This document shows positions 26,362 to 59,274 of a DNA stretch of 64,000 nt, piece by piece. The DNA is taken from contig NZ_CP146101.1 of assembly GCF_037023745.1 (NCBI RefSeq), positions 3,216,001 through 3,280,000 on the forward strand. The letters run 5' to 3'. The position numbers and the translations under genes are program-made. Position 1 is the stretch's first letter. Each line of letters starts with the position of its first letter. The notes under the pieces were generated by a model that had not been told where the DNA came from, searched no databases, and saw only the letters and a program-made list of their open reading frames with translations. The DNA comes from Streptomyces sp. SCSIO 30461 (GTDB taxonomy: Bacteria > Actinomycetota > Actinomycetes > Streptomycetales > Streptomycetaceae).

Positions 26362-26368
26362 ATGCACC

Positions 26369-26803: not shown

Positions 26804-26805
26804 CC

Positions 26806-28365: not shown

Positions 28366-28544
28366 TGGTGTGTCGTGACACCGGGGCGACGGCGGAGCGC
28401 ACGGTGTGATGTGGTGATGGAATGCCGCGTCGGCACCGAGGGTGGGCAGTGACGCGGGATGCCGCAGGCGTGTGGGACGGAGGGCCGGGACACCGAACGA
28501 TGACCGCGCCGAAGACGCTTCGTCGGCCGGTCGGCCCCACCCCG

Positions 28545-29741: not shown

Positions 29742-30389
29742 GGCGAGCCCTCCTCTGCGAAAACGCCTGCTCGCGCGGGTGTGCGAACTGGTGGTGCATC
29801 GGCGCGGTCCCGTGCCGTACGGGCCGGCCACCATGTGGCACCCCATGGTGTTGATCACCGCCAACGGCATCCAGGCAGACTGACAACTATGGCTGAAACC
29901 CGGACCGTTGACGTTTGATTGAAGCTGTGCGTTGGGTGGTAGCGGCCCGCCGGTCCTCCCGAAGGGCATTCCCTCCCGGCCGCTCCTTGCCACATGCCAA
30001 GGGCAAAGGTTTTGCGGAAGCGCCGGGCGCGTGGTTGTGCCGTCCCGCGCCCCGGTCCGCTCCGGGCGCTGCAGTGTTGCCGCGTCGGCGGCGGCACCCC
30101 GCGTTTCGGGCTCGACCGGGGTGGAAAGTATTCGCTCACTGGATGTCAGACAGCTCCCGACTCGGCGAGAACTGGGTTATGTCTACAGGGAGTTGGGGGC
30201 CATCAGCGCGCAGTCACTTCGGCGCCGACCCGCGTTTCTGGAAGACGAGAGTCAGGGGTCGAAAGGTTGAGCGAACATATTGTGATGACATTCACCACCA
30301 TCCCGGCCTGCGGTAACGCATGGTGATGAGTTGCCTACGACTTCAGCACGTACAGTTACGCGTGTGCAGACAGTCGACGAAGGAGACTC
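29742..30389. other. Divergent intergenic region upstream of the graspetide locus
   Basis: About 650 bp. It includes a possible small frame, GTG 30120 to TGA 30270 (50 codons, with a LDVRQLPTRRELGYVYRELG segment) that looks protein-like but has no recognised family. The AT-rich stretch 30275-30380 probably holds the promoter of the graspetide genes. No RNA element recognised. Confidence 0.4.
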
Positions 30390-30598: not shown

Positions 30599-31582
30599 AT
30601 GACCGTGCTCATCCTGACCTGTCGGCAGGACGTGACCGCCGACATGGTGGTCGCCAAGCTGCATGAACGAGGCGTGCCCCTGGTGCGCCTTGATCCCGCC
30701 GACGTTCCCGGCGAGGCCGCCATGTCCGCCGAATACGTGCAAGGCGACTTCTACGGCCATCTGTCCACCGAGGGGCGCCTGCTCAGTATGGGCGCCCTGC
30801 GCTCGATATGGGTGCGCAGACCGGGGGAACCCGCGGCCCACGCCCCGGCGCCGTCGAAGTGGCTCACCGCCGAAACCGAACAGGCGCTCTACGGGATGCT
30901 GTACTCCGCCACCGCGCGGTGGATGAACCATCCCGCCATGTCCGCCCAGGCCCGATGCAAGCCCTGGCAGCTGAGCCTCGCGCACCGCAGCGGTTTCGCC
31001 GTGCCACCCACCGTCATCACCACCTTCCCGCGGGTGGCGCGGCAGTTCGCCGCCCAGTACCGGGACATCGTCGTGAAATCGGCTTCCGGGCCGCCGGTCG
31101 GTGATCCGCCGGTCGCCCTGCCCACCACCCGGATCAACCAGGACGCCGACTTCTCCTCGGTCGCCGCCGCCCCGACTTTGCTCCAGCAGTACATCGCCAA
31201 GCGTGCCGACATCCGGCTCACCGCGGTGGGCGGCAGGCTGTTCGCGGCGCGCAAGCTCGCCGCGTCCGACCAGGTCGACGGGCGCTACGGCAGCACCGGC
31301 CACAGCTGGGAAGGTGTGGAGGTGCCCCATCGGATCGCCCGGGCCGTCCGCGACTACGCGGGCGAGGCGGGCCTCGCGTATGCCGCCTTCGACTTCGCGG
31401 AGGACGAGGAGGGGGTGTGGTGGTTCCTGGAGTGCAACCAGGGCGGGCAGTTCGGGTTCATCGAACTGGAGACAGGCCAGCCCATCGCGGACGCGGTCGC
31501 CGGTTGGCTCGCCGCTGCGCCGAACGGGTCGAGCCGCGTTATGCCGAGAGCGTCCGCGGGGGATGGTCATCGTGTTCTATGA
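30599..31582 (+). CDS. tgmB: ATP-grasp peptide ligase for the graspetide
   Basis: 327-aa ATP-grasp enzyme that forms omega-ester or amide cross-links in the precursor peptide. It begins with the MTVLILTCRQDVTADMVV strand typical of the family, includes IVVKSASGPP and LLQQYIAKRADIRLTAVGGRL (ATP-binding region), and ends with the metal site DFAEDEEGVWWFLECNQGGQFGF, read in parts. Directly downstream of the precursor gene, with no other modification gene close by. The frame ends at 31582, 22 nt before the chaplin gene. Confidence 0.92.
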   Translation: MTVLILTCRQDVTADMVVAKLHERGVPLVRLDPADVPGEAAMSAEYVQGDFYGHLSTEGRLLSMGALRSIWVRRPGEPAAHAPAPSKWLTAETEQALYGMLYSATARWMNHPAMSAQARCKPWQLSLAHRSGFAVPPTVITTFPRVARQFAAQYRDIVVKSASGPPVGDPPVALPTTRINQDADFSSVAAAPTLLQQYIAKRADIRLTAVGGRLFAARKLAASDQVDGRYGSTGHSWEGVEVPHRIARAVRDYAGEAGLAYAAFDFAEDEEGVWWFLECNQGGQFGFIELETGQPIADAVAGWLAAAPNGSSRVMPRASAGDGHRVL

Positions 31583-32082: not shown

Positions 32083-32159
<77 letters not shown>

Positions 32160-32311: not shown

Positions 32312-33397
32312 TCAGTCCCGCCGCGCCACCAGCCGGTAGGCGTTCGCGAGTCCGAGGCGCTCCGCGAACGGCGCGAGAGCACGGTCCGTCAGCGTTGCCG
32401 CCAGCAGGGCCGGCAGCCCTGCCAGCAGTACCGAGGTGCGTAGCGCGCGTCTCGCGGCGCCGGGTCTGGCGGGCAGCCAGGGGAGATCGTCCCGCGGCGC
32501 CGCCTCGTCCAGCCCCAGCCAGACCGCCGCCACCAGATCGACCGCCTCGTGCGCCGATCCGTGCTGCTGCGCCACCATGGTGAAACCGTGTCCCGCCAGC
32601 GCCCGGCGCAGGTTGGCCACCGGCACCAGATGCAGATGCTGCGGCTGGAGCCAGGGGAGCCACCAGCGCCCGAGCAGCCGGGCATAGCGACTGTCCGGGT
32701 CCGGCACTTCGATCACCAGATGCCCACCGGGGCGCAGTGCCGCACGTGCCGCCTCCAGCTCCCGCACGGGCTCGGTGCTGTGCTCCAGGTAGTGGAACAT
32801 GCTCACCACGTCGTATTCGCCGGTCATACCGGGCGCGAGCTCCGTGAAGCCACCGCGGTGACCACGCTCGACCCGCCCCTCGCGGGCGGCGAGCTCGGCG
32901 CCGTCGGAGCGGTCGAGCCCATCGAAGACCACGTCCGGCAGCACCTCCCGGGCGACCTCGCAGAAGTGGCCGTGGCCCGTACCCACATCCAGCCACCGCT
33001 TTGCCTCGCCGACATAGGGGAGCACCGACTCGGCACGGCGGCGGTACGAGGCGGTGCGCCCGCTGAACATCCCGTCGAGCTGCCGCTCGCCGAGGCCGTC
33101 ATAGAAGTCCCGGTAGTAGAAGTCGAGCCCCCTGGCGTTGAGCCGGGGGTTCTGGAACAGGTGCCGGCAGGAGTGGCAGCGGTCGATCCGGAACGTGCCG
33201 GGCTTGTGCTGGAGAAGGTCGGCTGTGCGCAGCTGCCCGCCGATCCGCGCCGATCCGCACCATGGGCAGGTGTGCCGCATCGGTTCGAAGAAGACCTGCG
33301 GCCCGTCGGCGAGCTCGTTCCGGTAGGCGGGTCGCAGCGCGGCCACCAGTTCATGCCGTGACTGCTGGGGACGGGAGCGCTGGGAGCGGGCGGTCAT
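32312..33397 (-). CDS. SAM-dependent methyltransferase with N-terminal zinc ribbon (PKS cluster)
   Basis: 361-aa class I methyltransferase. The N-terminal part has two CxxC knuckles (C44/C47 and C74/C77) as in the zinc-binding sugar or carboxylate methyltransferase group. SAM motif I is WLDVGTGHGHF; motif with FHYLEHSTEP follows. Its start overlaps the glycosyltransferase stop by 4 nt (ATGA), so it is the last gene of the PKS transcript. It may methylate the sugar or lipid chain; zinc-ribbon methyltransferases of this type often act on NDP-sugars. Ends 99 bp from the tRNA terminator. Confidence 0.87.
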   Translation of the reverse strand: MTARSQRSRPQQSRHELVAALRPAYRNELADGPQVFFEPMRHTCPWCGSARIGGQLRTADLLQHKPGTFRIDRCHSCRHLFQNPRLNARGLDFYYRDFYDGLGERQLDGMFSGRTASYRRRAESVLPYVGEAKRWLDVGTGHGHFCEVAREVLPDVVFDGLDRSDGAELAAREGRVERGHRGGFTELAPGMTGEYDVVSMFHYLEHSTEPVRELEAARAALRPGGHLVIEVPDPDSRYARLLGRWWLPWLQPQHLHLVPVANLRRALAGHGFTMVAQQHGSAHEAVDLVAAVWLGLDEAAPRDDLPWLPARPGAARRALRTSVLLAGLPALLAATLTDRALAPFAERLGLANAYRLVARRD

Positions 33398-34620
33398 ACG
33401 GCGTTCTCCTCGGGGGCCCGGGTGCTTGCGGTGTAGGTGTCGTCATCGCGGGCAAGCAGTTCCAGATGGGTGGCGGCGGCCTCGGCGCCGCCCGCGGCAC
33501 GGAAGGCGGAACCGATCTCCCGCGCTGCGGCCCGGTAGCCGGGCGTGTACAGCACGGCGTCGACGGCCGCACCGATCCTGGCCTCGGTCGCGCGTCCGAA
33601 GCGGACCCGTACCCCGGCACCCGCGTCGGCGACCTGCGCGGCGATCACCGGCTGGTCGTCCCTGATCGGTGCCACGACAAGGGGTACGCCGTGCCACAGC
33701 GACTCGCACACCGTGTTGTGACCCGCGTGGCAGACCACCGCGTCGACGTGCCTGAGCAGCGCCAGTTGCGGCACCAGGGGGACGCACAGCAGATCCTTGT
33801 CCTGGTCCCCGTGCGCGGAACCGGCGTCCACGACGCCCTCGGGGTCCACGATGACGGCCTGCATCCGGTCGGCACGCGCCCGCAGCGCCCGGGCGCACTC
33901 GGTGAGGAAGCGCTCACCCACGTCGGTGTTCGCGGTGCCGAGGGTGACGAGGACCTTCGCCCGTTCCGGGTCGAACCACTCCCAGGGAAAGCCGGCCGGG
34001 CTGGGTCGCGCGGCCAGCGACGGGCCCACCCAGCGGATCCGGTCCCCGCCGCGGGCGGGCGGACCGGCCAGCTCCTGGGTGGTGAAGGCCAGCACCAGAT
34101 GGGGTGAGAACCGCGGATCCGCCGTTCCGTCCGGGGCGCCGATACGCCCGCGCAGCTCCTGCAGCAGGGCCTCGTTCCAGGCCGCGACCTTCGGCATCGA
34201 CGCAAGGACATCGGCGAACTCCGCCGATGTCGTCGCCGACGTCGCCCACCTCACCCGCAGCCGCTCGGCGACGAGTCCGCCCGCAGCGGCCTGCTGGTCC
34301 GCGACCAGCACATCGGGACGGAACACCTCCACCGCGTCCCGTACGCCCTCCGCCATCGCGTCGGCGAGCGGCACCAGAAAGCGCTCCCAGAGGAATCGCA
34401 GCGCTTCAGGGCCCCGGATGTCCGCGGGCCGTTCCGGACCGTCCGTCCAGGTTGCCGGGGACGGGAACACCCGCGCGTCCTGTCCGGCGAGGCGGTGCAC
34501 CGCGTCGGGCAGCCCTGCCCAGGCCACCTGGTGTCCACGTCCGGTCAGCGCCGCCGCCACGCCGACCAGCGGATTGATGTGCCCGACGAGCGGCGGGACG
34601 ACGAACAGGAAGCGGCTCAC
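33394..34620 (-). CDS. GT1-family glycosyltransferase (macrolide/calicheamicin-type)
   Basis: 408-aa GT-B enzyme. The C-terminal nucleotide-sugar motif VVCHAGHNTVCESLWHGVPL followed by APIRDDQP is diagnostic for the UGT/MGT group acting on secondary metabolites. The N-terminus FLFVVPPLVGHINPLVGVA is the acceptor-side signature. Overlaps the hydrolase stop and the methyltransferase start by 4 nt each. It probably attaches a sugar to the PKS product; no NDP-sugar biosynthesis genes are adjacent, so a common cellular sugar is likely used. Confidence 0.92.
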   Translation of the reverse strand: MSRFLFVVPPLVGHINPLVGVAAALTGRGHQVAWAGLPDAVHRLAGQDARVFPSPATWTDGPERPADIRGPEALRFLWERFLVPLADAMAEGVRDAVEVFRPDVLVADQQAAAGGLVAERLRVRWATSATTSAEFADVLASMPKVAAWNEALLQELRGRIGAPDGTADPRFSPHLVLAFTTQELAGPPARGGDRIRWVGPSLAARPSPAGFPWEWFDPERAKVLVTLGTANTDVGERFLTECARALRARADRMQAVIVDPEGVVDAGSAHGDQDKDLLCVPLVPQLALLRHVDAVVCHAGHNTVCESLWHGVPLVVAPIRDDQPVIAAQVADAGAGVRVRFGRATEARIGAAVDAVLYTPGYRAAAREIGSAFRAAGGAEAAATHLELLARDDDTYTASTRAPEENAV

Positions 34621-35459
34621 AGTATGTTCACCTCCATGGGCGCGGCCGGCAGCGGACTGCCGTAACGGTGCGGATGGCGCCCGATCCAGTCCAGTACGAG
34701 GTCGCGCACCTGGCCCGGCGCCTCCACCAGCACCGAGTGCTCATGACCCGGCAGCAGTACGGTCCTGCACCGGGGGAGCAGGGCGCGAAGCCACGGAGCC
34801 TGCTCGGCGAGGTCGGAGTCCTCGCCGTACACCGCCAGCACCGGGCAGTGCAGAGAACGGAGCTGCTGTTCGCCGACCACCTCGCAGGCGGTGACCTCGG
34901 CTGCGATCGCGGTGTCCCGCACCAGCCGTCCCGCCGCCTTCGCCAGCCGTGCCGTGTGGCCGCCGCGGTGCGCGGCGATCCAGTCGAGAGCGTCGCGCTC
35001 GTTGGCCGTCATCTCGTGCCGCACCCGGTCCAGCAGGCCGAAGATCTTGCGCGCCCAGGAAGGCGTGGCCGGTTCGGACTCGATGACCGCGATGCTCGCC
35101 ACCCGCTCGGGGTGCCGCAGGGCGTAGCCGAAGGACACCGTGCCGCCGAAGGAGTTCCCGACCAGATGCACAGGACCGTGGATCTCCAGGCGTGCGAGGA
35201 GCGCCCCGAGATCGCCCGTGAACGCGTCGAGGCTGTACCCCGTGGCCGGGCGCTCACTCCGGCCGTGCCCCCGCTGGTCGTACATCACCACATCGAGTCC
35301 GGCCGCGGCGAAAGCCGGTGCGACGGTGAAGTAGTAGCTCGCCAGACTGTCGGTCAGCAGACCGTGCAGCAGGACGACGGTGGCCCTGGCCGGGCGCCCG
35401 TCGCCGGGACCGAGCCGCTGGACGTGCAGCCGGACACCGCCGGCATCGATGATCGCCAT
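34617..35459 (-). CDS. Alpha/beta hydrolase, possible chain-release enzyme
   Basis: 280-aa hydrolase. The nucleophile elbow is VGNSFGG (Ser near residue 103); the acid is in YGEDSDLA and the His in LPGHEHSVLVEAP, giving a complete triad. The oxyanion segment LHGLLTDS is intact. ATG 35459 begins 3 nt after the ACP stop. In this cluster it is the only candidate thioesterase or esterase to release or trim the acyl chain, which I infer from context. Confidence 0.88.
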   Translation of the reverse strand: MAIIDAGGVRLHVQRLGPGDGRPARATVVLLHGLLTDSLASYYFTVAPAFAAAGLDVVMYDQRGHGRSERPATGYSLDAFTGDLGALLARLEIHGPVHLVGNSFGGTVSFGYALRHPERVASIAVIESEPATPSWARKIFGLLDRVRHEMTANERDALDWIAAHRGGHTARLAKAAGRLVRDTAIAAEVTACEVVGEQQLRSLHCPVLAVYGEDSDLAEQAPWLRALLPRCRTVLLPGHEHSVLVEAPGQVRDLVLDWIGRHPHRYGSPLPAAPMEVNIL

Positions 35460-35462
35460 CGG

Positions 35463-35786
35463 TCAGCCCGCTCCCGCGCTCTTGAGGCAGTGCGCGACGT
35501 GTTCCACGAGCCGGCCGACGGTGAGCTCGATGATGTCGTCGAGCTCCATGGACGCCACGAACTCGGCGAAGTTGACCGTCCGCCCGTACCGGTCCTCCAG
35601 ATGACCGGCCAGGGTGACCAGGTCGATGCTCTCGAACTCCAGATCCCGGCTGAACCGGGTCTCCATCCCGATCTCGGTGTCGTCGAGTCCGTAGTCCTCC
35701 AGGACAAGTCCGATCATGGCTCTGATATCGGCGAGGATCTCGTCCTGGTCCGCCCGTAACGGCCCCGCAGGCTGTGTCGTGGTCAC
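35463..35786 (-). CDS. Free-standing acyl carrier protein (PKS cluster)
   Basis: 107-aa carrier protein. The phosphopantetheine serine lies in FSRDLEFESIDLVTLAGHLE. Acidic helices and the ~25-residue tail match discrete ACPs. Its ATG overlaps the PKS2 stop by 4 nt (ATGA). PKS2 has no ACP of its own, so this protein may serve its KS/AT/DH, or pass the chain to the hydrolase and glycosyltransferase genes that follow. Likely activated by the PPTase domain of PKS2. Confidence 0.9.
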   Translation of the reverse strand: MTTTQPAGPLRADQDEILADIRAMIGLVLEDYGLDDTEIGMETRFSRDLEFESIDLVTLAGHLEDRYGRTVNFAEFVASMELDDIIELTVGRLVEHVAHCLKSAGAG

Positions 35787-38700
35787 TTCCCGTCCTCCTC
35801 GTCGCTCGCTGTTCCGGACCGTTCCGGGCCGTTCGCGCTGTTCGGGTCATTCGGGCGGTTCGGTTCACTCGGGCTGCCCGGGCCGGTGGGGGCGGCCGGG
35901 CCTCCGGTCCACGCGACGACGTAGGAGCGCTCCGGCAGCCCCGGGGGATTGCTCACCTGCTCGCAGGCGACCCGATGGGTACGCGGCGGTTCACCTGATG
36001 CGGTACGCACCTCGACGGTCAGCCGGTCGTGTGCCGCGGCCACCACCGCGAAGTCCCTGGGGCGGCCTGCGAATCCCGTGCCCTCCGCCTTGGCGGCTGC
36101 CTCCTTCGCCGCCCAGAAGCGGGTGAACCACAGTGCCTCGGACTCACCGGTGGCTTCTCGGCAGGTGGTCAGCAGCGCACGCTCATCCGGGCCCAGGGCA
36201 GCGGTCAGCGTGGTCTCGGGGCGCTCGGTGATCTCCTCGATGTCGATTCCCGGACCGGCACCACCGCCTGCTGCCTGTGCGGTGGCCCGGGGGGTCACGA
36301 GGGCGACGGCCGCCTCGGCCCGGTGGGCGATCGAAACGGACAGGGGCGGCAGTGTCCGGCCGTGCCGTCCGCTCACCACGGGCCGGCCGTCCGCTTCGTT
36401 GTCCACGCACAGCTCGGCGGGGAAGACCGGGCCCTCACCCTGCCGCCAGAGAACGCCGCGCACCGCGTCCTTGGCGGCGATCCGGCCCAGCAGCCACTGC
36501 CGACGCCCGCGCGGTGGCTGCCGTTCGTAGGCCCGGCGCTCGGCGCTGCCCAGCATGTTGCGCATGATCAGGTCACGCGATGCCAGGTCTGGCCAGCGCT
36601 CATGGACCAGCGACCAACCACCCGCACGGCTCTCGGACAGGGTGTTGTGCTCGGGGAAGCGCTCGACCGGCCGGGTCTTCGGGTCGTTGTCGAACCGGCG
36701 GTCCTGCCAGCCGGACAGCTCGGCCCACACCGTTCCCCCGATGAGCAGCAGCGCGTCGGCTTCGAGGAGGGAACCGGTCAGCGCGGTGACGCGGATGAGG
36801 CACTCCAGCGCGGTGCCGGGCGGGGGTGGCGGGCCGAAGAACCGCATTCGCCGCATCCTGACGGGGAACACCACGGTCCGTTCGGTGGCGGTCGCCATGA
36901 TCCAGTAGCCGAGCACCTGCCCGACGTTGTCCAGCAGCGCACCGGGTGCGGGCGGCACGGTCAGCACGGCGCGTGCATGACGGTCGCCGATTCCGGTCAG
37001 CTCGGTCACACCCTGGTAGGCGGGGCCGTGGAACATCCAGCGCTCGTCGTACAACTGGGCCGCCCGGTGTGCCGGTCGGCGCTCGTCGCCGAACGTGCCG
37101 CGGTCCCAGACCGGTGGGGGAGGGCCATGGCGTTCGGCGAGCTCGACCGTGGCACGGGCGTGCGGGCCGAAGGACACATCGGCGAGCCCCGGTCCCGACG
37201 GGGTGACGGTGACGGTGACGTCCATCGGCTCGGCCGCCGTCAGCCAGCGGTCGAACCGGGCTTCGTGCACGGCGATCGCCCGCAGGCCGGGGGCGCCTCC
37301 TTCCGCCGCGTCCATCATGTGGTGGACGATCGTGGTGGCGGGGACCACCGGCCACCGGTCCGCGACGTCGGGCCAGTCCGGACGCTGCCGGAAGAAGCAG
37401 TGGTCGAGCAGATAGGGCATGGAGTCCGGCCCCACACGGACCGTGAACGCGGATCCGGCGGGCGCCGGGTCGGTCGGACGGGCCGGAGCCGGTGTGGGCA
37501 TCGCACGAGCCGTCGGCATCCTGGGCGGCGGCGGTGCGGTGCGGGCGGTCGCGGAGATCAGTTCGGCCGCGACGGCAGCGGTGTCCTGCATCAGCGCGTC
37601 GAGTTCGGCGAGTACGGGGAATCGCGCGGCTGCCGCGCCGGTGGTGACCGGGGCCGACGCGGACGGCAGGGACCGGGCCGTCGCGTGCCGGGGAGGTGCC
37701 GGGAGCAGCGAGGAGCGCAGCGCGGCGGCGGTGCCGCGGTCCAGCGAGACAAGGGCGCCGCTCAGATCGAGCCGCACCGGCGGCGGCGCCTTCGGCTCTG
37801 TGCCGGCGACGCCCGTGGCCGCTGCTGTGGCTGCGGTGGTGGCTGTGATGGTGACTGCGGGGGGGCGGTCGACCGCGTCGGGCCGCACCAGAGCGCCCTC
37901 GGCCCACAATGCGACCGCGACCCGCCGCAGCTGTGCGAGACCGGAGCGATGGGGTGAGTTGGCGGCCACCACCAGATGCTCCCGGCCCGCCAGAGTGTCG
38001 TCGATCAGCGAGCCCAACTGCCCCGTGCCGACCTGGATGAACGCCCGGAAGCCGGACGCGTACAGAGCTTCGGTCAGTTGCCGGAACCGGACCGGCTCCA
38101 GCAGATGGCGTACGAACAGCGCGCGGACACCCGCCTCGTCGTCGGGGAACGGGGCCGCCGTCGTACCCGACCAGACCGGCACCGACGGCCGGTGCAGGGA
38201 GAACCGTTCGGCCGCCGCCCGGAACGGTCCGAGGCTGGGCTCCAGCATCGGAGTGTGGAATCCGGACCGGAACGGCAGCACTCTGCAGAGCACCCCGTCG
38301 GACCGCAACGCGCCGACGAACTCCTCGACGGCGTCCGGTGGCCCGCACACCATCGACTGGTGTGGTGCGTTGTCATGCGACAGACTCACCGGAAGACCGG
38401 AGTGCCGCAGAGCCTCCGACACCTGCAGCGCGGACCTGCCGACCGCGGCGAAGGCGAGGTCGGGCACCGTGACCGTGTCGGGGTCGAGCGAGGCCATGAA
38501 TTCGTCGACGGCGTGCTCGGCGTACACTCCGGCCGCCGCCATCGCCGTCCACTCACCGATGCTGTGCCCGGCCACCGCCTCCGCCACGACGCCCATCCGG
38601 CGCAGCGCCGCGTCCAGCAGCCGCCCCACCGCGACCACACCGAGACCGTGTCGGCCGATGTCGTCCACCTCGGCAGCCGCCGTGCCACTGCCCGCACCAG

Positions 38701-40570
38701 TGGCCGAAGCCAGGCCGAAGTGCTCGGCCACTCCCTCCACCCGCGGTGCGAAGTCGCCTTCGAGCCCCGGGAAGACAAAGGCCACACGACCGGGACTGGC
38801 ACCCCCGAGCAGCGGCTCATGAGCGAACCAGACGTCGTTGCGACCGCGCCAGGCCTGGCCCTTGGCGAAGGCGCGCCGGGCCAGCGCCAGCCGTTTCGGG
38901 GTGGGCGCGACGATGCCGAGCCGGATCCGGCTCGCCGGCTCCGCGGCAGCGGAAGGTGCGATGCCCATGGCCAGTACGGTGTGGTCGTCGGCGTCCAGCA
39001 GGGCGGTCAGCCGCTCCGGGCTGTCGGCCGCGAGCAGCAGCGTCCGTTCGGGCTCGGTGATGGACAGCGACCGCTGCGCCCCGTCAGTCGACCGCGTCGC
39101 CCCCGAAGGCCTGGCCGACTGGTGTGGTGCCGGGGCCTGTTCGAGGATCACATGGGCGTTGATCCCGCCGAAGCCGAAGGCGTTCACCGCCGCGCGGCGC
39201 CCGCTGCCGCAGGCCGTCTCCCAGGGAACCGGAGCGGTCAGCGGACGGAACCGGGTGTCCGCGAGGGCTGGGTGCGGGACTTCGCAGTGCAGGGTCGGCA
39301 GCAGCATCCCGTGATGGACGGCCAGTGCCGCCTTGACGAGACCGGCCACTCCCGCCGCGGGCATGGCGTGGCCGATCATGGACTTCACGGAACCGATGAC
39401 CGGACGGCCGTTCCCGGGACGGTCACCGCTCTGTCCGCCGTACGGCCCGAACACCTCTGCCAGGGTGCGTAGTTCGGCCGCGTCACCGGCTGGTGTCGCG
39501 GTGCCGTGCGCCTCCAGCAGACCGATGGACCCCGGGTCGGCGGGATCGATGCCGGCAGCCTGCCAGGCCTGCCGCACCGCCCTGATCTGTCCCCCCGGAT
39601 CGGGGTTGACCAGACCGGCCGTACGGCCGTCGCTGCTCACCCCCGTGCCCCGGATCACCGCGTAGACGCGATCGCCGTCCCGCTCGGCGTCCGCCAGCCG
39701 TTTGAGTACCACCACCCCAGTGCCCTCGCCGATAAGGATGCCGTCCGCGTCCCGATGGAACGGGCGGACACGCTGGCTCGGCGACAGTGCCCGCAGCTGC
39801 GAGAACACACTCCAGAGGGTGATGTCATGGCAGTGGTGCACACCGCCCGCCAGCATCACGTCGCAGCGTCCGGAAGCCAGCTCGCCCACCGCCTGGTCCA
39901 CCGCCACGAGCGAGGAGGCGCACGCGGCGTCCACGGTGTAGGCGGGTCCGCGCAGATCCAGCCGGTTGGCCATACGCGAGGCGGCGAGGTTGGGCACCAG
40001 GCCGATCGCGTTCTCGGGCCGGTCGGGGCCGAGCCGCTCGGTGAACGCAGCGCGCACCCTGTTGAGTTGGGATTCACCGAGCTCCGGCAGCAGTTCGCCG
40101 AGTGTGCGCACGAGCTGGCCTGCCGTGCGTACCCGCTGGTCCAGCCGGACCAGGCCGGGGGTCAGATAGCCGCCGCGTCCCAGCACGACCCCGACCCGCT
40201 CCCGCACCGGCAACCGTTCCTCGCCGCCCGCGTCGGCGAGCGCCGCGGCCGCCACGTGCAGGGCGATCAGCTGGTCGGGCTCGGTACCGGACACGGAGCT
40301 GGGCATGATGCCGTACCGCGTCACATCGACGTCGGTCAGTGTGTCCACGAAACCGCCCCTGCGGCAGTACACCCGGTCCGCGGCAGCGGGACCTGATGCG
40401 GAATCCGGCCGGTAGTAGGCCGCGTCCCAACGCCCTTCGGGTACCTCGCTGATGGCATCGAATCCGGTCAGGAGATTGCGCCAGTACGCCGCCAGGTCCG
40501 GTGCACCCGGCAGCAGTACGGCCATCCCGGTGATGGCGACGGGCGTGCTGCGGAAGTCGGGACGCGACAT
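35783..40570 (-). CDS. PKS2: iterative type I PKS/PUFA synthase-like, KS-AT-DH-PPTase
   Basis: 1595 aa. KS (~10-470) has Cys in VDAACASSLVAVD (~217), His in EAHGTATPAGD and GHAMPAAG. AT-like domain (~590-880) has GHSIGEW. A hotdog DH (~1040-1290) has LLDHCFF (His) and LLDNVGQ (Asp/Gln). The C-terminus (~1400-1560) is a Sfp-type phosphopantetheinyl transferase with GIDIEE and WFTRFWAAKEAAAKAEGTG. No ACP or KR. ATG 40570 begins 1 nt after the PKS1 stop. The fused PPTase resembles enediyne and PUFA-type synthases. It probably partners with PKS1 and the discrete ACP in iterative chain building. Confidence 0.93.
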   Translation of the reverse strand: MSRPDFRSTPVAITGMAVLLPGAPDLAAYWRNLLTGFDAISEVPEGRWDAAYYRPDSASGPAAADRVYCRRGGFVDTLTDVDVTRYGIMPSSVSGTEPDQLIALHVAAAALADAGGEERLPVRERVGVVLGRGGYLTPGLVRLDQRVRTAGQLVRTLGELLPELGESQLNRVRAAFTERLGPDRPENAIGLVPNLAASRMANRLDLRGPAYTVDAACASSLVAVDQAVGELASGRCDVMLAGGVHHCHDITLWSVFSQLRALSPSQRVRPFHRDADGILIGEGTGVVVLKRLADAERDGDRVYAVIRGTGVSSDGRTAGLVNPDPGGQIRAVRQAWQAAGIDPADPGSIGLLEAHGTATPAGDAAELRTLAEVFGPYGGQSGDRPGNGRPVIGSVKSMIGHAMPAAGVAGLVKAALAVHHGMLLPTLHCEVPHPALADTRFRPLTAPVPWETACGSGRRAAVNAFGFGGINAHVILEQAPAPHQSARPSGATRSTDGAQRSLSITEPERTLLLAADSPERLTALLDADDHTVLAMGIAPSAAAEPASRIRLGIVAPTPKRLALARRAFAKGQAWRGRNDVWFAHEPLLGGASPGRVAFVFPGLEGDFAPRVEGVAEHFGLASATGAGSGTAAAEVDDIGRHGLGVVAVGRLLDAALRRMGVVAEAVAGHSIGEWTAMAAAGVYAEHAVDEFMASLDPDTVTVPDLAFAAVGRSALQVSEALRHSGLPVSLSHDNAPHQSMVCGPPDAVEEFVGALRSDGVLCRVLPFRSGFHTPMLEPSLGPFRAAAERFSLHRPSVPVWSGTTAAPFPDDEAGVRALFVRHLLEPVRFRQLTEALYASGFRAFIQVGTGQLGSLIDDTLAGREHLVVAANSPHRSGLAQLRRVAVALWAEGALVRPDAVDRPPAVTITATTAATAAATGVAGTEPKAPPPVRLDLSGALVSLDRGTAAALRSSLLPAPPRHATARSLPSASAPVTTGAAAARFPVLAELDALMQDTAAVAAELISATARTAPPPPRMPTARAMPTPAPARPTDPAPAGSAFTVRVGPDSMPYLLDHCFFRQRPDWPDVADRWPVVPATTIVHHMMDAAEGGAPGLRAIAVHEARFDRWLTAAEPMDVTVTVTPSGPGLADVSFGPHARATVELAERHGPPPPVWDRGTFGDERRPAHRAAQLYDERWMFHGPAYQGVTELTGIGDRHARAVLTVPPAPGALLDNVGQVLGYWIMATATERTVVFPVRMRRMRFFGPPPPPGTALECLIRVTALTGSLLEADALLLIGGTVWAELSGWQDRRFDNDPKTRPVERFPEHNTLSESRAGGWSLVHERWPDLASRDLIMRNMLGSAERRAYERQPPRGRRQWLLGRIAAKDAVRGVLWRQGEGPVFPAELCVDNEADGRPVVSGRHGRTLPPLSVSIAHRAEAAVALVTPRATAQAAGGGAGPGIDIEEITERPETTLTAALGPDERALLTTCREATGESEALWFTRFWAAKEAAAKAEGTGFAGRPRDFAVVAAAHDRLTVEVRTASGEPPRTHRVACEQVSNPPGLPERSYVVAWTGGPAAPTGPGSPSEPNRPNDPNSANGPERSGTASDEEDGK

Positions 40571-40571
40571 C

Positions 40572-43500
40572 TCACCACTCCGAGGCGGTGTGGACGACGG
40601 CCCCGGCCGTCCCGTCGCCCCATGCCAGCTCCCGCAGCAGGGCGAGCGAGCCCTCTTCCGGGTCGATCAGGGTGATCCCGCGCCGCGAATAGGACCTGGC
40701 CAGCTCGGGGCCGACCATGCCCGAGTGGATACCGGAGGGCGCCCAGGGCCCCCAGTGAACGGTCAGCACCCGGCGTCCGGTGCGTGCACGCCAGTGCTCG
40801 CCGAGGCTCTCCAGCGCGTCGTTCGCCGCGGCGTAGTCCGCCTGACCGCGGTTGCCGAGCACAGCGGAGATACTTCCGAACAGCACGGTGAACGAAGGGC
40901 CGTCGGGCAGTTCGTCGAGCGCGGACAGCAAGGATGCGGCGCCCGCCACCTTGGTGCCGTAGACACGCTCGAAGGATTCGGCCGACTTCTCCTCGATCAG
41001 GCGGTCCTCGATCACACCGGCGGCGTGGACCACTCCGTCGAGCCGTCCGTGCTCGGCATGGATCTCCTTGACCGCTTGGAGCACGGCTGCGGAGTCACGG
41101 CAATCGACACTGCGATAGCGTGCTTCGCTGCCCGCGGATTCCAGAGCCGCGAGCGTGGCGGTGATCTCGCGCTGGGCGAGAATGAGCCCGGCGGCACGGG
41201 CGATCTCGGCCGGCGAGGTGTAGCGTCCCCGCGTCGCGAGCACCGCCCGCAGAGCGGCCTCGTCCTCGGCCACCGCCGTCGCCGGGTCTTCGGGACCGGC
41301 GGGCGCGGGGGTCCTCCCCAGCAGCTCGATGCGGCAACCGCATGCCCTGGCGAGTGCGACGGCGCAGGCGGCCGTGATGCCGCGGGCTCCGCCCGTCAGC
41401 AGCACCACGGCGTCCCGGCCGAGCCCGATGGCCTCGGCTTCGGCCGCTCCTTCGCCCGCAGGGCCCGCGCCGGTCAGCGCGATCGGCCCGAACGGTGCCT
41501 CGGCCAGCGCTCGAACGTTACGGCCTTCGCGCCCGCGCAGCACGGCTGGGGCGCCGCCGGGCGCGGTCAGTTCATCGAGTACGGCGGCGGCGACCGCGGC
41601 CGGTCGGTCCGTTCCGCCGAGTCCATCCGATCCGTCCGGTCCGTCGGCTCCGTACGGCCCGGATGCCGCGTCCGGCAGTAGATCGATCACCGTAGCCGCC
41701 GTGTCCGGGTACTCGCGGGCGATGCTGCGGAACAGACCGCCCAGCCCCGCCGCCCGCTCGCCCACACGACCGTCCTCCGTTGGGCGTACCGCGATAAGCG
41801 TCCGTGGGCGGATCCGCAGTGCGGCCTTGACGACGGGGAACGAGCCGGGGAGCACGGGCGGTCCCGAGGCCGCAAGGGAGTCAAGGAGGATGACTCCGTC
41901 GAGCGGCCCGTCCTCGTCGGTGAGCAGCCTCCCTGCGGGGAAGCGGACCGCCGTGGCGCCGGTGCCGGCCAGCAGTTCCGTCAACGCCGAAGCGGCACCG
42001 GCGTGTTCACCGTCACCGTCGCCGATGAGCGCGAATCGTCGCCCGGTGAGGCGCTCATCGGCTGCGGTGGTCTTCGGCAGGGGCGCGGGACGCAGGAAGA
42101 ACCGTTTGGGCGCGGCGATCGCAAGAGGGGCGGCGTCCGGTGTCCCGTCGGCCTCGATCCCGTCGGTATCGGTACGGTCGGCACCTGTCCCGGTGGTCCC
42201 GGTCTCCGTCGTCTCGGACGCCGTTGTAGTAGACGGCGGGAGCGACACCGGGGGCGCGTCGGCGGATCCTCCGGTCGCGAGTGCGGCGATCCGGGCAGCC
42301 AGTGCCTCCGCGGTCCTGGCTTTGGCCAGTTCCTCCATGGCGGCGTCATCCAGGGTCGCGGCGTCTGCCGACACCGCTCCGGCGGCGACCAGTCTCCCCG
42401 CCGACTCACCGACGATCTCGGTGCGTTTGATCGAGTCGATGCTGAGGTCGGCCTCGAGGTCGAGACCCGGCTCGACCATGTCCGCCGGATATCCGGTGCG
42501 TTCGCTGATGATCTCGACCACCATGCGCAGGACATCCGCGTCGGACAGCACGACGGGCCCGTGGCCCGCCACGGCGCCTTCCACCACGGCGTCCGGCGGA
42601 CCAGGAACCGAAGCCGGACCAGGAACCGGAACCGGATCGGGCAGCGCGTGCGAGCGGGTCGCCGCGGGAACCACATGCGGCGGCGCCGCGACCGGGCTCG
42701 TGCCGTCGACGGCCGGAGCGCCGCCGAAGTAGGTGAGCAGGACATCGCGTTGCGCCGCCACCATGTCCCGGCTGGTCCGCAGGAATTCGGCGATCAGTGC
42801 GTCCTGGCGGGCCGCCGCCCCCTCGGCCTCTTGCGCGCCCACGGGGTGATTCGTCGTCACAGTCGTCTCCACGACACGTCGGGCCGGTGCCAGCGCACCG
42901 GGCAGCAGCTCACCGGATGCGGTGCGCACCAGATGTCCGTCGACCGTCCAACCCGGCCGCCGTTCGACGACGGCGGCGCGGCCCGGGTCGACGGCGTCCC
43001 GCCCCCGGAACATCCAGCCGGTGCGGACCGGCAGCCCGGCCACCGCCAGCCGGGCGAGCGCGTCCAGCAGCCCTGACAGTCCGCTGTCCGGTCGGGGTTC
43101 GCAGGCGACGGCGAGGTGCGGCCGGTCGCCGAGTATCTCGGCGACCAACCGGGTCAGCACCCGCCCCGGACCCGCCTCGACGAAGATCCGGGCACCGGCC
43201 TCGTACATCGCCTCGATCTGTGCGGCGAACCGCACCGGAGCGCCGATCTGCGCCGCCAGCTCCGCGCGGACGGCATCCGGCCCGTCCTCGTACGGTCGCG
43301 CCGTGCGATTGGACCACACGGCGAACTCCGGTTCTCGAAGGCCGTGTTCGGCCAGCGCCCGGGCGAAGCTGTCGGCGGCGCCCGCCACCAGCGGACTGTG
43401 GAAGGCACAGGCCACCGGGAGCCGCTTCGCGCCGTGCCCCGCCTCTCGCAGCAGCCGTACGGCGGCCTCGACGGCCGCGGTCGGTCCCGACACCACCGTC

Positions 43501-46500
43501 TGGCGCGGTGCGTTGTGGTTGGCGATGACCAGGCCCGTCACTCCACCCGCCTCGCGCGCCGGGCCGACGGCCTGTTCGATCTCCGCCGCTGATGCGGACA
43601 CCGCGGCCATGGCACCCGGGTCGCCTCCGGCTGCCGCCAGGATCACCGCGGCACGCTCCCGGCTCAGCTCCAACAGCGTTTCTGAGTCGAAGGAGCCCGC
43701 CGCGCACAGGGCCACCAGCTCCCCGTAGCTGTGGCCCGCTGCCATGTCCGGTTCGACACCGGCCTGGGTGAGCAGAGTGTGCGCGGCGAGGTCCACCATC
43801 CCGAGTGCCGGCTGGGCGGCCCTGGTGTCCATGAGGTCGGTGCGCAGCCGCTCGCGCGCACCGTCGGCGAAGGCGGCGGGTGGGAGCAGCGTCGCGGCGG
43901 TGCCGCTGTCGCAGGCCAGCAGGTGATGCAGTCCGGGGAAGGAGGTGAACACCTCAGCGAACATCCCAGGGCGCTGGCTGCCCTGCCCAGGAAAGAGGAA
44001 CGCCACCTTGCCGCGCTCGGCCCCGGTGAGTGCGTCGGATCCGGCCCCCGCCTCGGGGCGGTCGTCGACATGGACGCCTGCCTGAGGCGAGTGCTCCCCG
44101 GCCAGCACGCGACGCAGCCGCTCGCGCAGTTCCGCCCGGTCCTTCGCCACGACGGCGAACCGCACCGGGCCGCGTCCCTTGTCAGCGCGCCGGGAGGCGG
44201 CCAGAGCCAGATCCCGCAGCCGCCACCGGCCGGGTCCTTCCGCGTCGGCCGACTCCAGGGCCAGCAGCTCTTCGACCGCCCTGCGCGCTGCTTCGGCGTC
44301 CGCGCCGCGAAACAGGAACAGCTCGGCCGGCCAGGCGTCACGTCCGTGCGCGGCCGGCGGTGCGCCGTGGTCGTGGGCGCTCAGTACCACGTGGAAGTTC
44401 GTGCCGCCGAAGCCGAACGCGCTCAGTCCGGCCAGCCGCCGCCGGGGCGAAGCGGTCCACGGCAGCGCCTCGCGGTGGAACACGAACGGACTCCGGCCCT
44501 CCTGCCAGGCGCGGTTGGGTCGTTCCAGATGCAGTGTCGGCGGTCGCACTCCCGTGTGCAGGGCCAGCGCGGTCTTGATCAGACCGGCCAGTCCCGCCGC
44601 GCACTTGGTGTGCCCGATCTGCGACTTGACCGAGCCCAGGACGCAGCTCCCCCTGTCCGCACCGGCGGCTTCGAACACCTCGGTGAGGACTTCCAGTTCG
44701 GTGCGGTCGCCGACCACCGTGCCGGTGCCGTGCGCCTCCACCAGACCGATGTCGGCGGGTGAGGTCCCGGCATTGCGGTGTGCCCGTTCGAGCGCCCTGC
44801 GTTGTCCTTCCGGCCGGGGAGCCGTCAGTCCGAGCGAACGGCCGTCGCTCGAGCTGCCGACACCCTTGATCACTCCGTAGACGCGGTCCCCGTCGCGTTC
44901 GGCGTCGGCAAGCCGCTTGAGCACCACACAGGCCACGCCCTCGCCGAGCGCGATTCCGTCGGCACCGCTGTCGAAGGCTCGCGATCTGCCCGTGGGCGAG
45001 AGCGCATGCACCGACGAGAACAGCACGTAGTCGTTGATCCCGTTGTGCAGGTCGGCGCCGCCGCACAGCATGATGTCGCTGGTGCCTGCGACAAGCTCCT
45101 TGCAGGCCACGTCGACGGCGGCGAGCGACGACGCGCAGGCGGCGTCGACGGTGAAGTTGGGGCCGCCGAGGTCGAGGCGGTTGGCGATCCGCCCGGAGAT
45201 CACGTTGGAGAGCATCCCGGGGAACGAGTCCTCGGTCAGCGCAGGCAGCTGCCCGTTCAGACCTTCGGGCACAGCGCCGTAGTACGAGGGCAGCACCGCG
45301 CGCAGCGTCGCCGCGTTCGACAGGTCGCTGCCCGGCTCGGCGCCGAACACCACACCTGTGCGCGTCCGGTCGAAGTCCCTTCCCCCCGAGCCGATTCCGG
45401 CGTCCTCAAGTGCCCGCCGAGCCGCCTCCAGCGCCAGCAGCTGCACGGGTTCGATGCTGCCGAGTGAGGCGGGCGGTATGCCGTAGCGCAGCGGGTCGAA
45501 TGGTACGGGCGCCAGGAAGCCGCCCCAGCGCGATGCGGACGCACCACTCGCATCGGGACCGTGCACAGCGGGGTCCCAGCGTTCGGGCGGGACCTCGCCG
45601 ACGGAGTCCACCCCGTCCAGGACGTTTGCCCAGAAGGAGGCGAGGTCGGGTGCTCCCGGGAACATGCATGCCATCCCGACCACGGCCACGTCCAGCGGCC
45701 GCGGTGCTTGGGGTTCCGTGCCAGCCTCCCGGTCGGGGCCGAGCCCGGGGCGTGTCCGCAGCGCGGCCCTGCGCTCGCCGATGTAGCGTGCGGCGGCGTC
45801 GCTGACCGCGGTGTGCAGTTCCGCCACCGTGGTGGTGGCGGACCGCAGTACGGCGACCTCGCCGGCCATGAACATGCCCTCGGTCAGCTGCCGTTCCTCG
45901 TCCACGGCGGAGAGTGCCCCGCCGTCGGAGCGCTCCAGACCCTTGGCGGCCATCCGGAGGCGTCCGACGTTGAGCCGTTCGAGCCGCTCCCAGACCTCGC
46001 GATCACCGAGCCCCTCGCGACGCAGGTCGTCGCCCAGCGCCCGGAAGGCCTCGCTGAACGGGCTCGGCACACAGCGGGTGGCATGGCCGGGCGCGGTCTC
46101 CAGGAGTGCCGTGCGTTCCGCCGCCACGACCCGACGCTGGAAGAGCGGCCGGACCGCGCCGCATGTCACGGCTTCCTCGGTGAACAGATACGCCGTGCCC
46201 ATGAGCACCCCGACGGCGCAGCCGCGTGCGGTGAGCGGGGCGGCGAGCGCGGCGGCCATCGCGGCGGACCGTTCGTCATGGATACCGCCGGCGAGCAGCA
46301 CCTCGATCCGTGCGGTGTTCCGCTGCGCCTCGGGTCCGGTCTCGCCCGTGCGATCCCCCGCGCCGTCCGGCCCGTGTCGGCCGTGCCTGCCGTCCAGGAA
46401 ATCCTGCAGAACGCCGAGTTGGGCCTCCCACAACGGGAAGCTGTTGCGCGGCCCGACATGCCCACCGCATTCGGCACCCTCGAAGACGAACCGGCGCGCA

Positions 46501-47777
46501 CCCGCGTCCAGGAACTGCCGCAGCAGACCGGGCGACGGCACATGCAGGAAGGCCTTGATCCCTGCCTCCTCCAGGACGTGTGCCTGCGAGGGCCGCCCCC
46601 CGGCGACGATGGCGTGCGTCGGGCGGGCGTCGATCACCGCCTCCAACTGGGCGGACCGGGTCTCCTCCGGAGCGAATCCGAGGATTCCGACCCCCCACGG
46701 CCTTTCGGCGAGGGCGTCCCGTACCTCCGCGAGCATCGTCCGTGACTGCTCGGCTCCGGCGAGCGCCAGGGCGATGAAGGGGAGGGCGCCTTCGGCGGCG
46801 ACGGCTTCGGCGAAGTCCGCACGGTCGCTGACCCGGGTCATCGGCCCCTGGGCGATCGGCAGGCGGGTGCCCAGCGCCCCGCTCATCGCGGAGCCCACTG
46901 TGAGGCTTCGCTCGGCGGTGTCCTCGCGGACGGCGGCGTGTACGGCATCGCTGACGGCACGTAGCGCACGGCCGGTGTCTCCCCAACGTTCGGCGAACCG
47001 GGCCGCGAGGAACCCGTCCTGACCGACCGGCAGTGGTTCAACCGCCGCGCCGTGCTGCGGCGATCCGAGGCGACGCAGGGTCCGCAGGCCGGCCACTACA
47101 CGAGTCTCCGAGCCGTCCATCGTCCGGAGCACCGCCGCGATGTGTTCGGGCGTCTCCGACTCGGCCAGCAGCGCCAGTTGGGTGTCCAGCACCACTCCGG
47201 TAGCGCCACCGACGACAGCCGCCGCCGCGGTCCCCGGTGCGATCCCTCCACAGGCCCACACCGGGATACCCGATAGCTCCCCGGCACTGAGGAGCTGTTG
47301 GAGGAGGACAAAGGTACTGAGCTCACCGACCGGGCCGCCGCACTCATTGCCGCGGGCGATCAGCCCGTCGGCCCGCGACCGTGCGGCGGCGCGTGCCGAG
47401 TCGAGGTCGGTGACCTCGACCAGCACGCGGTGGCCGGGCGGTACGTCCCCAGGCGCCCAGGTGGATCCGGGGGCCAGCACCACGGTGCCGGGTCGGGATG
47501 GGCGGGCCCGCACGGAGCCGGTTTCGGCGCTGCGGGCCCGATCGGGCCCGAGCTCGTCCGGGCCGAGCCGGCACCGTGGGCCGACCCGGATTCCGTAGTG
47601 GCCGGGAGCCCAGCGACGCAGTGCCGCAAGGGCATCCCGGGCTCTTCGGTCGCCGGTCCCCAGGTCGAGCACTCCGAGCCCGCCGGAGCGGCTGACCGCT
47701 GCGGCGAGTCGGGCGTCCGGCTCACCGAAGGGGGTGATTCCGATGACCAGGTCCACGATGTGCTCTGCCGACGTCAT
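40572..47777 (-). CDS. PKS1: tandem NPD-like domains-KS-AT-ACP-KR
   Basis: 2401 aa, read in order: first FMN-barrel (NPD/PfaD-like) domain (~5-240, with GNECGGPVGE and ACGGIAPG); second, fuller NPD-like domain (~290-650, QGPMTRVSD, GAECGGHVGP, LAGGIHD); KS (~690-1130, Cys in VDAACASSLAAVD near 880, His in EAHGTGTVVGD and IGHTKCAAG); AT (~1255-1560, GHSYGE near 1344); ACP (Ser in LEADLSIDSIKRTE, ~1777); KR (~1870-2330, GGARGITAAC and ADYAAANDALES). The ACP and KR motifs are of the PUFA-synthase type. ATG 47777 heads the six-gene transcript. The NPD domains probably act as enoyl reductases, giving a saturated or partly reduced chain. Confidence 0.93.
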   Translation of the reverse strand: MTSAEHIVDLVIGITPFGEPDARLAAAVSRSGGLGVLDLGTGDRRARDALAALRRWAPGHYGIRVGPRCRLGPDELGPDRARSAETGSVRARPSRPGTVVLAPGSTWAPGDVPPGHRVLVEVTDLDSARAAARSRADGLIARGNECGGPVGELSTFVLLQQLLSAGELSGIPVWACGGIAPGTAAAAVVGGATGVVLDTQLALLAESETPEHIAAVLRTMDGSETRVVAGLRTLRRLGSPQHGAAVEPLPVGQDGFLAARFAERWGDTGRALRAVSDAVHAAVREDTAERSLTVGSAMSGALGTRLPIAQGPMTRVSDRADFAEAVAAEGALPFIALALAGAEQSRTMLAEVRDALAERPWGVGILGFAPEETRSAQLEAVIDARPTHAIVAGGRPSQAHVLEEAGIKAFLHVPSPGLLRQFLDAGARRFVFEGAECGGHVGPRNSFPLWEAQLGVLQDFLDGRHGRHGPDGAGDRTGETGPEAQRNTARIEVLLAGGIHDERSAAMAAALAAPLTARGCAVGVLMGTAYLFTEEAVTCGAVRPLFQRRVVAAERTALLETAPGHATRCVPSPFSEAFRALGDDLRREGLGDREVWERLERLNVGRLRMAAKGLERSDGGALSAVDEERQLTEGMFMAGEVAVLRSATTTVAELHTAVSDAAARYIGERRAALRTRPGLGPDREAGTEPQAPRPLDVAVVGMACMFPGAPDLASFWANVLDGVDSVGEVPPERWDPAVHGPDASGASASRWGGFLAPVPFDPLRYGIPPASLGSIEPVQLLALEAARRALEDAGIGSGGRDFDRTRTGVVFGAEPGSDLSNAATLRAVLPSYYGAVPEGLNGQLPALTEDSFPGMLSNVISGRIANRLDLGGPNFTVDAACASSLAAVDVACKELVAGTSDIMLCGGADLHNGINDYVLFSSVHALSPTGRSRAFDSGADGIALGEGVACVVLKRLADAERDGDRVYGVIKGVGSSSDGRSLGLTAPRPEGQRRALERAHRNAGTSPADIGLVEAHGTGTVVGDRTELEVLTEVFEAAGADRGSCVLGSVKSQIGHTKCAAGLAGLIKTALALHTGVRPPTLHLERPNRAWQEGRSPFVFHREALPWTASPRRRLAGLSAFGFGGTNFHVVLSAHDHGAPPAAHGRDAWPAELFLFRGADAEAARRAVEELLALESADAEGPGRWRLRDLALAASRRADKGRGPVRFAVVAKDRAELRERLRRVLAGEHSPQAGVHVDDRPEAGAGSDALTGAERGKVAFLFPGQGSQRPGMFAEVFTSFPGLHHLLACDSGTAATLLPPAAFADGARERLRTDLMDTRAAQPALGMVDLAAHTLLTQAGVEPDMAAGHSYGELVALCAAGSFDSETLLELSRERAAVILAAAGGDPGAMAAVSASAAEIEQAVGPAREAGGVTGLVIANHNAPRQTVVSGPTAAVEAAVRLLREAGHGAKRLPVACAFHSPLVAGAADSFARALAEHGLREPEFAVWSNRTARPYEDGPDAVRAELAAQIGAPVRFAAQIEAMYEAGARIFVEAGPGRVLTRLVAEILGDRPHLAVACEPRPDSGLSGLLDALARLAVAGLPVRTGWMFRGRDAVDPGRAAVVERRPGWTVDGHLVRTASGELLPGALAPARRVVETTVTTNHPVGAQEAEGAAARQDALIAEFLRTSRDMVAAQRDVLLTYFGGAPAVDGTSPVAAPPHVVPAATRSHALPDPVPVPGPASVPGPPDAVVEGAVAGHGPVVLSDADVLRMVVEIISERTGYPADMVEPGLDLEADLSIDSIKRTEIVGESAGRLVAAGAVSADAATLDDAAMEELAKARTAEALAARIAALATGGSADAPPVSLPPSTTTASETTETGTTGTGADRTDTDGIEADGTPDAAPLAIAAPKRFFLRPAPLPKTTAADERLTGRRFALIGDGDGEHAGAASALTELLAGTGATAVRFPAGRLLTDEDGPLDGVILLDSLAASGPPVLPGSFPVVKAALRIRPRTLIAVRPTEDGRVGERAAGLGGLFRSIAREYPDTAATVIDLLPDAASGPYGADGPDGSDGLGGTDRPAAVAAAVLDELTAPGGAPAVLRGREGRNVRALAEAPFGPIALTGAGPAGEGAAEAEAIGLGRDAVVLLTGGARGITAACAVALARACGCRIELLGRTPAPAGPEDPATAVAEDEAALRAVLATRGRYTSPAEIARAAGLILAQREITATLAALESAGSEARYRSVDCRDSAAVLQAVKEIHAEHGRLDGVVHAAGVIEDRLIEEKSAESFERVYGTKVAGAASLLSALDELPDGPSFTVLFGSISAVLGNRGQADYAAANDALESLGEHWRARTGRRVLTVHWGPWAPSGIHSGMVGPELARSYSRRGITLIDPEEGSLALLRELAWGDGTAGAVVHTASEW

Positions 47778-52762: not shown

Positions 52763-52963
52763 GCACCCACCACCCCCTTCCGGCCTGCGAGCCCCCTGCC
52801 CGTCCGTGCGCGTGTGCAGTGAGGATACGAAGCCCATCGTCCCAGTCCATGCCCGTTGTCCGGCATGCGGACAGGACTGTACCCGGAAAGCGGCGGGGCG
52901 CGCCCGTGGCCCAAGCCCACGAACGCGCCCCTGACCTGCGATTATGACCTCAAAGAGGCTGTC

Positions 52964-59181: not shown

Positions 59182-59255
<74 letters not shown>

Positions 59256-59274
59256 CTTTGCGAAGTCGCAGGTC

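Follow-up and report, generated by a model that had tools for sequence, protein, structure and literature searches.

A recurrent six-gene Pfa-like synthase locus of Streptomyces with a predicted pseudo-enoylreductase and a PfaB-like acyltransferase

Do two giant synthases that resemble polyunsaturated fatty acid (PUFA) synthases make a PUFA when their genes adjoin those of a glycosyltransferase (GT) and a methyltransferase (MT)? The question is raised by a six-gene locus of Streptomyces sp. SCSIO 30461, whose genome is one 8.05-Mb contig (NZ_CP146101.1), of which a stretch of 64,000 nt (positions 3,216,001 to 3,280,000), hereafter the window, was analysed. The genes occupy positions 32312-47777 of the window, all on the minus strand, and three of their five junctions are 4-nt overlaps, the other two being gaps of 1 and 3 nt. 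They encode synthase 1, with two NPD-type barrels followed by ketosynthase (KS1), acyltransferase (AT1), in-line acyl carrier protein (ACP) and ketoreductase (KR) domains; synthase 2, with a second KS and AT (KS2 and AT2), a dehydratase (DH) and a phosphopantetheinyl transferase (PPTase); a free ACP; an alpha/beta-hydrolase; a GT and an MT (Table 1). An original prediction, made from the DNA letters alone, had placed these six open reading frames, their strand and their tight spacing correctly, and a scan with Pfam and NCBIfam hidden Markov models backed each part of its domain list. Moreover, its description of a Pfa-related iterative synthase with a fused PPTase and an NPD-type reductase, accompanied by GT and MT genes, was upheld. 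The locus is probably a self-contained iterative secondary-lipid (Pfa-like) synthase operon giving a glycosylated, often methylated acyl product, with the reaction steps inferred.

A total of at least 567 relatives of synthase 2 were found, of which the best 80 loci were retained and searched by tblastn with the six window proteins, synthase 1 being sought upstream and the ACP, hydrolase, GT and MT within 6 kb downstream. Synthase 1 appeared in 79 of these loci, the ACP and the GT in all 80, the hydrolase in 78 and the MT in 53, while 51 loci had all six genes. The only locus where synthase 1 was missing (L080) has just 63 bases ahead of the match, and at its other contig end the match to the GT spans 24 residues. 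The genera represented were Streptomyces, Kitasatospora, Streptantibioticus, Wenjunlia, Amycolatopsis, Actinosynnema, Actinophytocola, Umezawaea, Longimycelium and Catenulispora. With this recurrence, the six-gene grouping is found far more often than expected by chance. Besides the six genes, a crude gene caller based on GC3 found no neighbour group in more than 10 of the 80 loci. Furthermore, relatives of the DH-PPTase part (E ≤ 1e-40, own genome counted) were present in 113 of 392 congeneric genomes, the best match having at least 55% identity in 88 of them and 41-47% in 25; at the level of the class, they were found in 54 of 394 genomes and 12 of 137 genera. The arrangement had been called unusual, which is not borne out by these frequencies. 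Among the matches listed, the closest relative of synthase 1 was a Streptomyces protein with 84% identity over the full length. Eight more distant loci (L123-L130) had the ACP and the hydrolase in all cases, the GT in seven and the MT in four; one of them comes from Pseudofrankia inefficax, with a synthase 2 that is 100% identical to a named protein. Two linear plasmids of Streptomyces (L122 and L133; 846 and 869 kb), whose gene tables are incomplete, also had the six genes side by side, with an IS3 transposase nearby. Five congeneric genomes (G055, G150, G165, G383 and G387) had two separate DH-PPTase places each, both with at least 59% identity.

The catalytic residues were examined in two sets of alignments. 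The first comprised 119 homologues of synthase 1 and 120 of synthase 2, the nearest of 6498 and 7887 reported, respectively, with the window excluded and a Pseudofrankia relative as the query for synthase 2. The second was built from the locus set, leaving out sequences that contained long runs of X or whose length was below 0.75 or above 1.4 times that of the query, so that (each plus the window) the alignment of synthase 1 retained 71 of 80 sequences and that of synthase 2 retained 77 of 80, with 18 of 80 for the ACP, 56 of 78 for the hydrolase, 32 of 80 for the GT and 22 of 53 for the MT; its frames were read from stop to stop and many are therefore lengthened. The residues checked in KS1, AT1, the in-line ACP, KR and the second barrel (NPD2) were present in all 119 homologues and in 70 to 72 of the 72 sequences of the locus set. 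In particular, the in-line ACP is slightly below its Pfam cut-off of 20.8 bits, but its attachment Ser is still invariable, and it matches the ACP region of TIGR02813 (E 4.6e-12). Distant Frankia-type relatives of synthase 1 (L125 and L127) had matches to at least two tandem ACPs, compared to one in the window. All the catalytic residues inspected had been said to be present, which holds for KS1, AT1, ACP, KR, NPD2, KS2 and DH, and fails for the first barrel (NPD1), which lacks its His, and for AT2, which lacks Gln and Arg.

The two barrels of synthase 1 are of the flavin mononucleotide (FMN) type, and the naming of the motifs and the role proposed for the His in enoylreductase (ER) barrels follow the available text of PMC13311796. 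At the catalytic (motif III) His position, the homologues of NPD1 had Arg (105), Pro (12), Gln (1) or His (1), with Pro in the window, and an alignment with FabK placed this site opposite the GGH motif. At the motif I Met position, placed by eye, Phe (115) or Leu (4) was found, with Phe in the window. NPD2, on the other hand, had the motif I Met and the motif III His in all 119 homologues, and each of them in 71 of the 72 sequences of the locus set. Thus, the pair of residues that marks FabK/PfaD enoylreductases (motif I Met plus motif III His) is complete in NPD2 and missing in NPD1. NPD2 is probably the active enoylreductase and NPD1 probably a pseudo-enoylreductase, in place of the two working FMN reductases proposed originally, as NPD1 is devoid of the His in 118 of 119 homologues. 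According to the same available text, the thraustochytrid PUFA synthase has two ER barrels (ERb and ERc) that pair as a heterodimer, and ERb was insoluble and without FMN when produced by itself (PMC13311796). By analogy, the His-less barrel might be retained as a built-in dimer partner or scaffold of NPD2.

The two acyltransferases also differed. The catalytic Ser and His of AT2 were found in all 120 homologues, while the oxyanion Gln was found in none (Leu 94, Val 15, Ile 8, Phe 3), nor was the malonate-binding Arg 25 positions after the Ser (Phe 99, Tyr 5, Ile 5, Leu 5, Val 4, His 2), a position at which AT1 had Arg in 119 of 119. Loss of the oxyanion Gln and the malonate Arg is described for PfaB, which transfers long acyl chains, in the available text of PMC12895367; AT2 shows this PfaB-type loss with Ser and His retained. 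As PfaB acts on long acyl chains and is devoid of these same residues, we infer that AT1 loads malonate and that AT2 moves the finished chain. KS2 retains Cys-His-His and is therefore not a chain-length factor (CLF), so that the KS-CLF pair of the EPA/DHA (eicosapentaenoic/docosahexaenoic acid) type, in which the second KS-like domain is devoid of these residues, is not found here. Moreover, Pfam scans of both synthases (E up to 0.01) gave no match to a FabA-type dehydratase, and a scan of the DH segment (E up to 1) yielded just PS-DH, a PKS_DH_N match below the cut-off and an unrelated weak one. Without a CLF or a detected FabA-type dehydratase, the locus is not expected to form methylene-interrupted double bonds.

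On this basis, synthase 1 would elongate the chain with malonyl units through KS1, AT1, ACP and KR, with NPD2 as the enoylreductase, while synthase 2 would contribute the DH, another functional KS and the PPTase arming the ACPs. AT2, without the usual malonate binding, would act as a PfaB-like long-chain acyltransferase that unloads the completed chain from the in-line ACP, with the free ACP as a possible acceptor; the chain would then be released by the hydrolase, glycosylated by the GT and methylated by the MT. The chain would be saturated or trans-unsaturated, with some hydroxyls kept. The attachment Ser of the free ACP was found in all 19 aligned sequences and the CxxC...CxxC motif of the MT in all 23 (locus alignment), and glycosylation and methylation of an acyl chain are reasonably predicted from the gene content. 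Four separate MT matches (41-43% identity) lie downstream of the GT in one of the distant loci (L128:653-6534). More tentatively, and with somewhat less than even confidence, a glycolipid pathway shared by no fewer than ten named genera of actinomycetes is proposed. In it, a dead and a live FMN barrel in one chain would form an intramolecular pseudo-heterodimer ER, and the PfaB-like AT would take the completed chain from the in-line ACP and load it on a separate one, where release and glycosylation follow. No description of such a transfer from an in-line to a separate ACP by a PfaB-like AT was found for any Pfa system in the available text of the literature.

Several observations weigh against a Pfa-like synthase making a glycosylated product. 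TIGR02813 (omega_3_PfaA) was the best NCBIfam match of both synthases (871.8 and 446.9 bits), but neither reached its curated cut-off of 1010.1 bits. Within the genome, the score of synthase 1 with this model (664.1 bits) favours the Pfa-like reading, as it exceeds those of synthase 2 (352.6) and of the next polyketide synthase (PKS) place (342.9); synthase 2, however, matches the model no better than an ordinary PKS of the same genome. Both thraustochytrid ERs retain the His, unlike NPD1, which makes the analogy with ERb and ERc a partial one. Likewise, the likeness of AT2 to PfaB is partial, as PfaB has a Tyr before the catalytic Ser (GYSxG), while AT2 has GHSxG, with His in 78 of 78 sequences. 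Regarding the tailoring genes, the MT is absent in 27 and the hydrolase in two of the 80 loci, one distant locus with a DH-PPTase part 50% identical (L129) has no GT match, the hydrolase nucleophile is Ser in 51 and Cys in six of 57 aligned sequences, and the GT scored 143.2 bits against a cut-off of 260 for the MGT family (TIGR01426). Because of these gaps and the Cys nucleophile, the tailoring steps are not all essential.

The alternative that survives best, though an unlikely one, is a relative of the enediyne PKSs, in which an iterative KS-AT-ACP-KR-DH-PPTase enzyme split in two would make a linear polyene with conjugated double bonds, to be released and then glycosylated. KS-AT-ACP-KR followed by DH-PPTase is the domain order of enediyne PKSs, and the single in-line ACP, the fused PPTase and the discrete hydrolase agree with it, while the extra KS2-AT2 and the two FMN barrels do not. 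Furthermore, a gene annotated as an 'SgcJ/EcaC family oxidoreductase', a name that derives from an enediyne cluster, adjoins the MT on the other strand of the first plasmid, with a 58-residue piece on the second. However, its product is DUF4440/SnoaL-like, and tblastn found it on both plasmids only, while the window, the other 80 loci and ten additional ones gave no match; as it is confined to two plasmids, this neighbour was rejected as a hint at enediyne chemistry.

Less probable still is that the GT and the hydrolase stand outside the assembly of the product and form a self-protection pair against it, like the GTs that inactivate macrolides. The GT does match the MGT family, although below its cut-off, and its weaker matches include self-immunity GTs. 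Nevertheless, the match to the self-immunity model OleI reached only 51.7 bits (cut-off of 700), the GT is retained in every one of the 80 loci, and its start overlaps the hydrolase gene.

A true PUFA synthase making methylene-interrupted EPA/DHA-like acids, the literal product first proposed, is the least credible of all: TIGR02813 is the top NCBIfam match of both synthases and the in-line ACP matches the PfaA ACP region, but both scores fall short of the cut-off, only a single in-line ACP was found, and methylene-interrupted products were rejected on the absence of a detectable FabA-type DH and of a CLF, KS2 having its complete Cys-His-His. To our knowledge, a GT and an MT are not part of the EPA/DHA pathway.

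Table 1. Features of the six-gene locus and the tRNA genes on either side of it (positions in the window)
Feature	Positions	Strand	Evidence
Synthase 1, 2401 aa, NPD1-NPD2-KS1-AT1-ACP-KR	40572..47777	-	Open reading frame list, Pfam, homologue alignment
NPD1, FMN-type TIM barrel, probable pseudo-enoylreductase	46908..47777	-	PF03060 53.8 bits (scanned alone)
NPD2, FabK/PfaD-like barrel, Met313 and His440, probable active enoylreductase	45828..46907	-	Pfam, FabK alignment
KS1, Cys881-His1016-His1056	44376..45692	-	Each residue 119/119
AT1, malonyl-type, Gln1265, Ser1350, Arg1375, His1460	43098..44006	-	Each residue 119/119
In-line ACP, Ser1782 in DSIKR motif, approximate borders	42288..42545	-	PF00550 19.5 bits; Ser 119/119
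KR, Tyr2315	40740..41411	-	PF08659 128.5 bits; Tyr 119/119
Synthase 2, 1595 aa, KS2-AT2-DH-PPTase	35783..40570	-	Open reading frame list, Pfam
KS2, Cys217-His355-His401 complete	39137..40546	-	Cys 119/120, His 120/120, His 120/120
AT2, Ser670-His772 retained; Gln replaced by Leu603, Arg by Leu695	38021..38785	-	Homologue alignments
DH, divergent PKS type, His1057 and Asp1214, approximate borders	36671..37447	-	PF14765 (PS-DH) 32.0 bits; His 120/120, Asp 119/120
PPTase, integrated	35936..36553	-	PF01648 58.8 bits; Asp 115, Glu 110, Lys 114 of 120
Free ACP, type II-like, 107 aa, Ser53	35463..35786	-	Pfam
Alpha/beta-hydrolase, 280 aa, putative chain release	34617..35459	-	Pfam
GT1 (MGT-like) glycosyltransferase, 408 aa	33394..34620	-	Pfam UDPGT, NCBIfam
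Methyltransferase, zinc-ribbon class I S-adenosylmethionine type, 361 aa	32312..33397	-	Pfam Methyltransf_23
tRNA-Pro (ggg), cluster-side border of variable interval	32083..32159	+	
Second tRNA-Pro (ggg), other border of variable interval	59182..59256	+	

The locus lies between two near-identical copies of tRNA-Pro(ggg), 27,099 nt apart. A congener without a DH-PPTase match (G006) had the same pair about 46.6 kb apart (L134-L137), and its interval had no blastn match to the window except the AAA/TPR (tetratricopeptide repeat) gene adjoining the second tRNA. Outside the pair, the two genomes matched on the side of the first tRNA (24393-30012, and 32001 onward), while past the second tRNA the match ended after about 90 nt. 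Since the same pair encloses other DNA in a cluster-free genome, the safer reading is that the two tRNA genes delimit a variable interval, and for the same reason the idea that they are the marks of an element that brought the cluster in is unsupported. Two large AAA ATPases, one with a LuxR-type helix-turn-helix and one with TPRs, are encoded between the cluster and the second tRNA (49742-52837 and 56235-59129), the second of them having matches in 35 of 41 congeneric genomes. The gene at 59711-60757 was found only in its own genome among 61 genomes (E ≤ 1e-60), and no synteny was gained from it. An MvdD-like pre-ATP-grasp protein, of a type that occurs in graspetide clusters, is encoded at 30599-31582.

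The residue patterns predict a dead barrel, a non-malonyl AT and the lack of an isomerising DH, which opens an orphan cluster to simple enzyme tests, and the six adjacent genes found together on plasmids offer a well-bounded unit for expression. Synthase relatives occur in the 113 congeneric genomes counted above, yet no product of this cluster type was found in open-licence full texts. The available texts report that a cloned T1PKS,hglE-KS region gave 'No new peak' (PMC7896053) and that there are two T1PKS/hglE-KS regions in S. olivoreticuli, with 13% similarity to a known cluster (PMC12472026); these antiSMASH labels are the ones that clusters of this kind probably receive, the likeness being one of label. 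Furthermore, Streptomyces Pfa-like genes are described in a different setting, inside hybrids of nonribosomal peptide synthetase and PKS, in the available text of PMC13291983.

Among the known systems, the available text of Shulse & Allen 2011 (PMC3098273) describes a Type M secondary lipid synthase in Streptomyces avermitilis, Actinosynnema mirum, Renibacterium and three Frankia strains, with an uncharacterised product. The relatives of synthase 2 seen in Streptomyces, Actinosynnema and Frankia/Pseudofrankia/Parafrankia follow the same pattern of occurrence, and the Frankia relatives point to this cluster being a probable Type M, a match made by host organism. The available text had no mention of GT or MT tailoring or of residue losses, the word 'glycosyltransferase' occurring 0 times in the main text.

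In the same text (PMC3098273), S. coelicolor A3(2), named by strain and not by SCO numbers, is assigned to Type L, which has a KS-CLF-DH2-AT fusion protein. SCO0126-0127 resemble the present locus in that they encode a Pfa-like synthase of an actinomycete whose product is unproven, and in that an ER gene lies at the 5' end of their cluster. Their relatives were assigned to eicosapentaenoic acid by similarity in the available text of PMC5932044. In contrast to the Type L fusion, no CLF, one PKS-type DH and two FMN barrels on synthase 1 were found here. The original prediction had suggested kinship with the S. coelicolor cluster and a different tailoring set; the differences in tailoring and architecture stand, while close kinship was rejected, as that strain is listed under Type L.

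The thraustochytrid synthase shares two FMN TIM-barrel ER domains per synthase with this locus, but in the available text its ERb and ERc are on two proteins, both with the His, whereas here the two barrels are in tandem in one chain and one of them has lost it (PMC13311796). With the marine PfaA-E synthases of EPA and DHA, the locus shares the KS-malonyl-AT-ACP-KR core and the functions of a PfaD-like ER, a PfaB-like AT and a PfaE-like PPTase; however, these parts are fused in two proteins here, with a probable pseudo-ER, without a detectable FabA-type DH or CLF, and with an extra hydrolase, GT and MT. Overall, the cluster is a member of a widespread, uncharacterised class, in which the probably dead barrel and the PfaB-like AT are new.

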